Origin: Palaeococcus pacificus DY20341
GTDB lineage: Archaea; Methanobacteriota_B; Thermococci; Thermococcales; Thermococcaceae
Direction: 5' to 3'
Assembly (NCBI RefSeq): GCF_000725425.1
Contig: NZ_CP006019.1
Location: 434,001 to 498,000, forward strand
DNA length: 64,000 nucleotides
The translations under genes and the position numbers were made by a program. Numbering within the stretch: the stretch's first letter is position 1; each line of letters starts with the position of its first letter. The notes under the pieces were generated by a model. It ran no database searches, had not been told where the DNA came from, and worked only from the letters and a program-made list of their open reading frames with translations. Below are positions 9,942-43,364 of this stretch, piece after piece.

Positions 9942-10577
9942 ATGGGTATCTTTATAGTGTTGGAGGGCATTGATGGCGCCGGAAAATCTACACAGGCGAA
10001 ACTGTTGGCAAAATGGTTTGAAGAAAAAGGATATGAGGTCGTTTTAACGAAAGAACCTACAGACACTGCTTTTGGAAAGCTAATTCGAAGGCTCGTTCTC
10101 ACTGGAGGTAAGGAGGGAATTATAGATGGTGCGAGGATTAGCCACGAGGCTGAAGCTCTTCTCTTTGCAGCTGATAGGGCTGAGCACGTCCATAAATTGA
10201 TAAAGCCTTCTCTAGAGCAGGGAAAAGTTGTGATCTCCGATAGGTACTTCTATTCTTCATTGGCTTATCAATGGGCTCGTGGACTCGACTTGAATTGGCT
10301 TGTAGATTTAAACCGCTTTGCAGTTCGTCCAAACCTGACTATTCTCCTAGATTTGCCGGTTAAAGAGAGTATGAACAGGATAAACGGTCGTAAAATAAAG
10401 ACAGAATTTGATAAAATTGCGGAACTTCAGAGGAAAGTTAGAAAGAACTATCTCACATTAGCAGAGCGCTTCGAGGAAATCAGGATAATAAATGCTCTAG
10501 CTTCAATGGAGGATATACACAACGATATAGTGGCGTTAGTGGAGCATGAAGTTTTGAGAAGAATAGAGGAGCGATAG
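9942..10577 (+). CDS. tmk: Thymidylate kinase
   Basis: 211 residues. dTMP kinase, which phosphorylates dTMP to dTDP with ATP. P-loop [11 protein letters not shown] at residues 6-16, the [11 protein letters not shown] motif (DRY) binding dTMP near residue 95, and an Arg-containing LID region. The KEPTDTAFG segment matches the base-binding loop. A TATA-like GAGTTTAAAGG at 9887-9897 and GGGGGTG before the ATG suggest its own promoter. Confidence 0.95.
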
Positions 10578-10596: not shown

Positions 10597-10655
10597 TTGG
10601 TCAGTTAACCCTCTTTTCTTCATCCATTCAGAGTGGCTAACGTTCATCATCCCCC
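10597..10655 (-). ncRNA. Probable C/D-box guide sRNA
   Basis: Read on the minus strand: C box ATGATGA (10650-10644, perfect), 12-nt guide ACGTTAGCCACT, D' box CTGA (10631-10628, perfect), 4-nt spacer ATGG, C' box ATGAAGA (10623-10617, one mismatch), 12-nt guide AAAGAGGGTTAA, D box CTGA (10604-10601, perfect). GG before C and CC after D can pair. The geometry is that of dual-guide archaeal C/D sRNAs. Predicted target sites: AGUGGCUAACGU and UUAACCCUCUUU. An AT-rich box at about 10675-10690 lies some 25-30 nt upstream and could drive both this RNA and the divergent ABC genes. Confidence 0.82.
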
Positions 10656-10671: not shown

Positions 10672-10690
10672 ATATCTTTAAATAATTATG
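10672..10690. promoter_or_regulatory. Shared TATA-like box between sRNA and ABC operon
   Basis: The stretch ATATCTTTAAATAATTAT reads as a TATA-like box in both directions. It is about 25 nt from the predicted 5' end of the C/D sRNA on the minus strand and about 35 nt from the ATG of the ABC ATPase gene on the plus strand. The two-way use is inferred from spacing. Confidence 0.45.
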
Positions 10691-10716
10691 GGCAGTAGTT
10701 TTATTTAGGTGGTTCA

Positions 10717-11613
10717 ATGCATGCTCTTGAAATTAAAGGCTTGAAAAAATCCTACGGTAATTTTCTTGCTCTGAAGGGAATAGACCTGCAGGTTGAGGAG
10801 GGCGAGATTTTTGCCCTTTTAGGGCCAAATGGTGCTGGTAAAACAACGCTTATAAGGATTCTTGCGGAGGGCCTGAAGTTTGACGGTGGGGAGATTGAGG
10901 TATTTGGGAAAAAGCTGAGTAAGAAAACAGCACGTTTAATAGGTTATGTTCCCCAAGAAAGCATTTCCTATGATTTGCTGACCGTTGAGGAAAACCTTGG
11001 CTTTTACGCGGATCTCTACGATGCACCTAGGGAGAAGGTCAAGGAGCTCATCAAGCGTTTTGATCTGCCAGCCAAAAAGAAAGCTAAAGAGTTGAGTGGA
11101 GGATTTAAGAGGCGTTTAAACCTAGCTATCTCACTTTTATATGAGCCCAAAATCCTGATTTTGGATGAACCTTCGACGGGTCTGGATGTTCCATCAAGAA
11201 GGCAGCTTTGGGAGCTCATAAAAGGCTTTAAGGCTGAGGACAAAACAATACTCCTCGCCACACATTACATGGAGGAGGCCGAGGCGTTAGCTGATAGGAT
11301 AGCAATAATGAACGAAGGAAGAGTTGTGGCTGTCGGTACAGCGGATGAGCTGAAAGCCCTGATAGGGGAGGAAAGCATTATCCAAGTTGAAGGTGTTCTA
11401 AGAGGAGTCGAAGGAATTAGAGAGATATCCCCGAGGCTTATTGAGAAAAGCGGGACTCTCAGGATTCATGTGAAGAACTCGAGGGAAGCTTTACCGAAGA
11501 TTGTCGAGCTTTTGATCTCTGCCGGAAGCGAGATAAAGGCCATTAAAGTGGAGGAGCCCACTCTGGAAGATGTATTTTTAAAGCTGACAGGGAGGGCTTT
11601 GGATGAAGTTTAG
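10717..11613 (+). CDS. ABC transporter ATP-binding protein
   Basis: 298 residues. Walker A GPNGAGKTT near residue 36, signature LSGGFKRR, Walker B ILILDEPSTGLD and H-loop LATHYMEEAEALAD are all intact. A C-terminal DUF4162-like domain of about 80 residues ends in VEEPTLEDVFLKLTGR, typical of exporter ATPases of the drug/DRA type. The stop overlaps the start of the permease gene by 11 bases, so the pair is translationally coupled and should form one exporter. The substrate is unknown. Confidence 0.9.
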   Translation: MHALEIKGLKKSYGNFLALKGIDLQVEEGEIFALLGPNGAGKTTLIRILAEGLKFDGGEIEVFGKKLSKKTARLIGYVPQESISYDLLTVEENLGFYADLYDAPREKVKELIKRFDLPAKKKAKELSGGFKRRLNLAISLLYEPKILILDEPSTGLDVPSRRQLWELIKGFKAEDKTILLATHYMEEAEALADRIAIMNEGRVVAVGTADELKALIGEESIIQVEGVLRGVEGIREISPRLIEKSGTLRIHVKNSREALPKIVELLISAGSEIKAIKVEEPTLEDVFLKLTGRALDEV

Positions 11614-27753: not shown

Positions 27754-28125
27754 ATGGCAGTGGTTGAAATGATGGAAGTGTTAAACCAAAGTTCCTCTAT
27801 GCTTGAGGCGAAGCCGGGCAATGTTATTTATTATGAGACTTTTAATGTGAACGGATATTTATTCAAAAATGGCTCTTTAGCAGGTGTTTACGCTGAAGGA
27901 GAGCTAATTCCTATTAAGGGCGAGAATTTGCCTTATGAAGTCCACGATAGGATTTTAAACAGAAAAAAGAGGTTCCACATCGTGTTTTTAGTAATTTGCA
28001 GAGAAGATAAGTATAAAGCAATGATCTATCTCGAAAACAGCTTAGAAAGATGGCTAATCTATGAAAAGGAGCTTGGAGAGAAGGACATCCAGTCATACTT
28101 GTTAAGTGGGCCCGGGGGGCTTTGA
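27754..28125 (+). CDS. Hypothetical protein ending inside a tRNA gene
   Basis: 123 residues, no membrane segment. No family recognised. A strand-rich N-terminal part (NVIYYETFNVNGYLFKNG) is followed by KKRFHIVFLVICREDKYKAMIYLE. The reading frame runs into the antisense tRNA (CAT) and its TGA lies within it (28123-28125), giving the tail SGPGGL from tRNA sequence. The start is uncertain: ATG 27754 lacks a strong RBS, and ATG 27769 or 27772 is possible. It could be a real gene whose end was extended by the tRNA overlap. Confidence 0.6.
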   Translation: MAVVEMMEVLNQSSSMLEAKPGNVIYYETFNVNGYLFKNGSLAGVYAEGELIPIKGENLPYEVHDRILNRKKRFHIVFLVICREDKYKAMIYLENSLERWLIYEKELGEKDIQSYLLSGPGGL

Positions 28126-28181
28126 ACCCCCGACCACGCGGTTATGAGCCGCGCGCTCTGACCAGGCTGAGCTACGGGCCC
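28107..28181 (-). tRNA. tRNA with CAT anticodon (likely Ile2, possibly elongator Met)
   Basis: A full cloverleaf of 75 nt on the minus strand: acceptor GGGCCCG/CGGGCCC, D arm GCTC/GAGC, anticodon stem CGCGG/CCGCG with loop CTCATAA, T arm GGGGG/CCCCC with loop TTCAAAG, discriminator A. CCA is not encoded (next bases CTT). It lacks the initiator features (three GC pairs GGG/CCC and AGC start). The GGGCCCG acceptor resembles archaeal tRNA-Ile, so a C34-to-agmatidine Ile2 is favoured. Confidence 0.95.
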
Positions 28182-28202
28182 ATGAGAGATATGAAAGCAA
28201 TA

Positions 28203-28278
28203 TGGCGCCGCCGCCCCGACTTGAACGGGGGACCACCGGATTAACAGTCCGGCGCTCTGCCGACTAAGCTACGGCGGC
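28203..28278 (-). tRNA. tRNA-Asn (GTT)
   Basis: On the minus strand the acceptor GCCGCCG pairs with CGGCGGC, the anticodon loop CTGTTAA gives anticodon GTT, and the D arm and T arm fold well. Discriminator G and the CCA end (28205-28203) are encoded. It lies 21 nt upstream of the CAT tRNA, so the two are probably one transcript. Confidence 0.95.
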
Positions 28279-28308
28279 ACAAGCCCATTCATAGGGAGTG
28301 CAGATTGA

Positions 28309-28350
28309 TTTATAAATCTTACGGTTCACCACGGCGAAAACTTTATAAAT
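28309..28350. promoter_or_regulatory. Back-to-back TATA boxes of the divergent tRNA groups
   Basis: TTTATAAATC (28309-28318) read on the minus strand is about 30 nt upstream of tRNA-Asn; CTTTATAAAT (28341-28350) is about 25-30 nt upstream of tRNA-Thr on the plus strand. The 97-nt gap thus holds two strong divergent promoters. Confidence 0.75.
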
Positions 28351-28375
28351 GCTGTTCAACACCTTTTCAAACGGT

Positions 28376-28452
28376 GCCCCGGTGGCTCAGCTTGGTAGAG
28401 CGGCGGACTTGTAATCCGCAGGTCCCGGGTTCAAACCCCGGCCGGGGCTCCA
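28376..28452 (+). tRNA. tRNA-Thr (TGT)
   Basis: Acceptor GCCCCGG/CCGGGGC, anticodon loop CTTGTAA giving TGT, discriminator T and an encoded CCA (28450-28452). First of three plus-strand tRNAs. It begins about 26 nt after the TATA box, the expected start distance. Confidence 0.95.
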
Positions 28453-28460
28453 GTTTTCAT

Positions 28461-28538
28461 GGGGCCGTGGGGTAGCTTGGTCTATCCTGCGGGCTTTGGG
28501 AGCCCGTGACCCGAGTTCAAATCTCGGCGGCCCCACCA
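28461..28538 (+). tRNA. tRNA-Pro (TGG)
   Basis: Acceptor GGGGCCG/CGGCCCC, anticodon stem CGGGC/GCCCG with loop TTTGGGA giving TGG, discriminator A, encoded CCA (28536-28538). It follows tRNA-Thr by 8 nt and is cotranscribed with it. Confidence 0.95.
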
Positions 28539-28539
28539 T

Positions 28540-28616
28540 GCCCCGGTGGCTCAGCCTGGTGGAGCGGCCGCTTGGTAAGCGGCAGGCCGCGGGTTCAAAC
28601 CCCGCCCGGGGCTCCA
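28540..28616 (+). tRNA. tRNA-Thr (GGT)
   Basis: Acceptor GCCCCGG/CCGGGGC, anticodon stem GCCGC/GCGGC with loop TTGGTAA giving GGT, discriminator T, encoded CCA (28614-28616). Only one base separates it from tRNA-Pro. It shares its acceptor stem with the TGT isoacceptor. The accessory gene pair begins on the other strand 11 nt beyond its end. Confidence 0.95.
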
Positions 28617-43106: not shown

Positions 43107-43253
43107 GTAGGGTACCTCCCTAATGATGTTTACCGTTGTCTGGGATATTGCCTAATCTTGTATTTATTGTTTATGTAACGTAGTCTCTTAAGTTGTGTGA
43201 CCGCAACGGTTAACTTTTTAAACCTTTGTTGATATTCTCCATTGGACTCATGA

Positions 43254-43293
43254 GGCTCTCTTGAAAAAAGCGGGTTTCCCGCTCGAGAGAGCC
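43254..43293 (+). other. Two-part hairpin upstream of EF-1A
   Basis: Outer stem GGCTCTCT (43254-43261) / AGAGAGCC (43286-43293); inner stem AGCGGG (43269-43274) / CCCGCT (43278-43283) with a 3-nt loop TTT; a 7-nt bulge (TGAAAAA) on the left and CG on the right. It sits between a TATA-like ACTTTTTAAACC (about 43213-43224) and the main TATA box at 43307-43318, so it may be transcribed from the first box. Role unknown. Confidence 0.5.
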
Positions 43294-43306
43294 GAGGTTA
43301 CAGAAA

Positions 43307-43318
43307 GATTTAAAAACC
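43307..43318 (+). promoter_or_regulatory. TATA box of EF-1A gene
   Basis: AGATTTAAAAAC with an AGAA purine run upstream as BRE, about 45-55 nt before the ATG. A second TATA-like element about 95 nt further upstream suggests two promoters. Confidence 0.55.
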
Positions 43319-43364
43319 AATCCCAATCAATATGGGTTAGGCAAAAATTTGGAGGTGTGTGAAG

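Follow-up and report, generated by a model that had tools for sequence, protein, structure and literature searches.

An sR34-family C/D-box RNA beside tmk in Palaeococcus pacificus, with a predicted 23S rRNA target for its D guide and an invariant D' guide

Introduction

Archaeal C/D-box sRNAs are bound by L7Ae, Nop5 and fibrillarin at their C/D and C'/D' motifs. The closest described relatives of the RNA analyzed here are the Pyrococcus sRNA sR34, catalogued as Rfam family RF01273, and Thermococcus kodakarensis sR41. The latter lies at 1226838-1226899 with a TSS at 1226903, is expressed and partly circular, and faces a second expressed and circularized RNA, sR42, which starts at 1226948 on the opposite strand (PMC9014305). 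In archaea, predicted guide-directed methylation sites are known to concentrate in helices 68-71 of 23S rRNA (PMC4644070; PMC7994747); RiboMeth-seq data for P. furiosus are reported to be deposited in GEO (PMC7758197). Guide segments devoid of a target, the so-called orphan guides, have numerous examples (PMC7994747). Within the same region of the ribosome, E. coli C1920 is the base methylated by the bacterial enzyme TlyA (PMC12805891), and a list of methylated positions in Arabidopsis organelle rRNA includes its equivalent (PMC8053127).

Here we analyze a 64,000-nucleotide stretch (the window) of the single-contig, 1,859,370-base genome of the thermophilic archaeon P. pacificus DY20341, in which an initial annotation had called a C/D-box guide RNA. 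The call was a correct one made from raw sequence, and the RNA is an ordinary member of the known and already catalogued sR34 family. We consider it almost certain that this orthologue is a double C/D-box guide sRNA whose D guide addresses 23S 2017-2026, where fibrillarin would methylate C2020, and we weigh several explanations for the strict conservation of its second, D' guide.

Results and Discussion

Architecture of the sRNA

The sRNA, delimited by the Rfam match and by its orthologues, spans positions 10598..10655 of the window on the minus strand, where the sequence reads 5' to 3' GGGGG-ATGATGA(C)-ACGTTAGCCACT-CTGA(D')-ATGG-ATGAAGA(C')-AAAGAGGGTTAA-CTGA(D)-CCA. Box C (10644..10650), the D' guide (10632..10643), box D' (10628..10631), box C' (10617..10623), the D guide (10605..10616) and box D (10601..10604) all lie on that strand and present the order C, D', C', D and the guides of about 12 nt that characterize archaeal C/D-box sRNAs; the assignments of D', C' and D are supported by comparison with relatives as well as by the sequence itself. 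Both guides are 12 nt long and the box-to-box spacings are 12/4/12, as the initial annotation had given them; its perfect C, D' and D boxes likewise hold on the sequence, and it had never claimed a perfect C', which departs from RUGAUGA by one mismatch. A scan of both strands allowing up to two mismatches located the double C/D-box pattern at this single site in the whole window, and 60 first-order Markov simulations of the window yielded 0 sites.

Family membership and conservation

The RF01273 covariance model matches positions 10599-10654 with 49.0 bits (E 4e-6 over the window), above the family's gathering score of 40 bits. The family is present in 36 of the 61 genomes searched, host counted, every one of them in the host's own family, in which one member, 77% complete, is without a match; it was found in 0 of 14 control genomes and nowhere among the remaining families sampled. 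Relative to the Rfam sR34 of Pyrococcus, the host RNA has the same boxes, both guide cores and the same size, but differs in two extra spacer bases, in CTGA rather than CCGA as box D, in a diverged terminal stem, and in the orientation of its gene, which is reversed with respect to tmk. Shared guide cores and the adjacency of tmk in most loci identify the RNAs as sR34 orthologues.

In the 36 sequences read (host included, all from one archaeal family), the boxes are recognizable throughout, with box C conforming to ATGANGA in every case; the loss of boxes in relatives, which the initial annotation had named as grounds for abandoning its call, did not occur. The 10-nt cores of the D' guide, CGTTAGCCAC, and of the D guide, AAGAGGGTTA, are identical in all 36, whereas spacer length, the outer guide bases and one position in each C box vary, a pattern of selection on both guides. 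A reading in which the boxes fell into this arrangement by chance, in an intergenic region containing no gene, has a vanishingly small probability: conservation had already refuted a chance origin, and the Rfam match, the 23S complementarity described below, the expressed orthologue and the empty simulations contradict it as well.

Four genomes of genus g6 contain a second RF01273 match (L043-L046), which we rejected as sR34: it is another C/D RNA, and its guides differ. The D' guide segment of this RNA, ACGTCAGCA, shows complementarity to the host 23S around 854-862.

Genomic setting and candidate promoter

The sRNA lies between an ORF for a putative thymidylate kinase, tmk (9942..10577, plus strand), a name taken from the initial annotation and consistent with the sequence, and an ORF for an ABC transporter ATP-binding protein (10717..11613, plus strand). 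The former gene is convergent with the sRNA and is, by tblastn synteny, a conserved neighbour of sR34; the latter is divergent from it and also adjoins sR34 at loci L008, L009, L010, L011, L015 and L040-L042. The host sRNA would be transcribed from the minus strand, convergently to tmk and probably from a promoter of its own. A TATA-like element, TTTAAATA (10677..10684, no strand assigned), was recognized from its sequence and spacing. On the minus strand, the sRNA 5' end is about 26 nt away from its center; on the plus strand, the ABC ATG is about 36 nt away and a plausible ABC mRNA start, near 10707, about 26 nt. It is plausible that this candidate element is common to the sRNA and the ABC gene, since both predicted starts lie at the same distance of about 26 nt and since T. 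kodakarensis sR41 and sR42 likewise form a divergent pair.

Gene orientation at the locus is not uniform. In the host, G001 and G005 (window, L038 and L040), sR34 and tmk occupy opposite strands, and the ABC gene is the divergent neighbour in G005 as it is in the host. Every other relative with tmk in reach, among them G002, a member of the host's genus, has sR34 and tmk on the same strand. The inverted sR34 of the host, G001 and G005 points to a local flip that was either repeated or reversed.

Comparison with T. kodakarensis sR41 and its divergent partner

The RF01273 match in G029, at 1226844-1226898, coincides with T. kodakarensis sR41, and slices of that genome at the sR41/sR42 coordinates contain two divergent C/D RNAs around CTTTTAAAAAG. 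The host RNA and sR41 have in common an orthologous sequence at the tmk locus and a divergent promoter arrangement, a predicted one in the host. Unlike the host RNA, sR41 has a longer terminal stem, is circularized, diverges from the sR12-like sR42 and lies on the tmk strand. The terminal stem beside the host boxes amounts to 2 bp only (GG/CC), and in T. kodakarensis short stems of this 2-bp type go with absent circularization (PMC9014305); a short terminal stem has no known implication of lost function.

In many relatives (L002, L009, L016, L021, L031, L041, L042) the divergent partner of sR34 scores as sR12, whose D' guide has its complement in 23S at 1994-2003, some 20 nt to the 5' side of the sR34 site. 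No sR12 was seen at the sR34 locus in the host, G001, G002, G005 and some g6 genomes. A search of the host genome for exact copies of the sR12 D' guide, GCGTTTACCGGT, found none, and the sR12 model reaches 20.6 bits there, below threshold; the absence of sR12 from the host is nevertheless not proven by these results, since the same model also misses T. kodakarensis sR42.

The D guide and its predicted target in 23S rRNA

In each of the two host rRNA operons, the D guide core and 23S 2017-2026 can form 10 Watson-Crick pairs; the operons and 45 tRNAs hold no other perfect match, and 0 of 40 shuffled D guides reached the same rRNA pairing energy. The two target strings that the initial annotation had proposed to look for fared differently: for UUAACCCUCUUU, the inner 10 nt have a match in 23S, while AGUGGCUAACGU found no match in rRNA or tRNA. 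The base at +5 of the D guide is C2020, which alignment to an E. coli 23S gene equates with C1920 of E. coli, a helix 69 position, so that at least one guide pairs with rRNA and positions a target as expected of archaeal C/D-box sRNAs.

We therefore propose, from sequence complementarity, that the D guide most likely directs 2'-O-methylation of 23S C2020 in the host. L7Ae, Nop5 and fibrillarin would assemble on the C/D and C'/D' motifs of the sRNA, the D guide would pair with 23S 2017-2026 at helices 69-71, and fibrillarin, whose gene is present in the host genome (G000:838607-839269), would methylate the 2'-OH of C2020, whose partner in the guide lies five nucleotides upstream of box D. The C/D-box guide RNA call is borne out by this 23S site together with the RF01273 match, the conservation, the fibrillarin gene and the expressed T. 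kodakarensis orthologue. The predicted target nucleotide is the same as that of bacterial TlyA, which forms Cm1920 of 23S as a stand-alone protein enzyme, whereas the host RNA would guide fibrillarin; if C2020 is methylated, two unrelated machineries, one RNA-guided, would have converged on a single base of the subunit interface.

The two host 23S genes, G000:C1:764909-767965 (L033) and 1524095-1527119 (L032), are identical save for one tandem duplication. The duplicated segment, present in one of the two genes, is a perfect tandem of a 32-nt hairpin unit, GATAAGGCCTGAAGGCATCTAAGGCCGAAGCG, at 23S 2827-2858, and could be either real or an assembly error.

The invariant D' guide

The D' guide yielded no acceptable match in 16S rRNA, 23S rRNA or the 45 tRNAs: the best rRNA and tRNA sites for its 10-nt core need at least one mismatch plus wobbles, and its best rRNA duplex includes a bulge. 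A genome-wide search for exact copies of GTGGCTAACG returned the guide's own site and one other place, no more than chance, which excludes an exact match in the 5S, SRP and RNase P RNAs. By sequence comparison, the D' guide is under selection, yet it has no clear target in rRNA or tRNA.

One explanation is that D' is a second working guide, directed to 23S G2478 (E. coli 2384) by a duplex with GUGGCCUAACG (2475-2485) that contains a one-base bulge. This duplex, with one bulged C, has the best D' energy in rRNA (-14.5 kcal/mol), and in many relatives the base beside D' is a G that would add a pair with C2474. The extra base is a U in the host, however, and stays unpaired; 14 of 40 shuffled guides pair equally well, and published prediction rules exclude bulged guide duplexes (PMC4644070). 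We consider methylation of G2478 by this route very doubtful.

Alternatively, the D' guide may guide nothing and be kept by pairing with the D guide of the same RNA, acting as a built-in target mimic that would tune folding or target release. Indeed, GUUAGCC-A-CUCU can pair with AGAG-GGUUAAC over 11 bp with one bulged A, the free RNA folds with an MFE of -12.9 kcal/mol (z -2.0; 4 of 200 shuffles are equally stable), and the 7-bp core of this pairing recurs in several orthologues and in the Rfam consensus structure. The core is not found in all relatives, however, and the T. kodakarensis RNA (L006) folds otherwise; moreover, the internal fold and the C/D k-turn of the RNP exclude each other. 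Compensatory changes are absent, since the D' core never varies, and L030 breaks one pair with no matching change. We regard the D'-D complementarity as a possible, suggestive reason for D' conservation, and the account in which D' serves the RNA in this way as unlikely. We would similarly give only a small chance to the broader proposal that the invariant D' guide is either a built-in mimic of the D target or a guide for a non-rRNA substrate, which would make sR34 a self-pairing or dual-purpose RNA that does not methylate rRNA via D'.

Other RNA features of the window

Elsewhere in the window, an ARAGORN tmRNA call spanning positions 28107-28613 is probably spurious; that interval holds five clustered tRNA genes, distributed over the two strands. 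The Rfam SscA RNA is matched at positions 43243-43342 on the plus strand (76.4 bits, E 1.2e-11).
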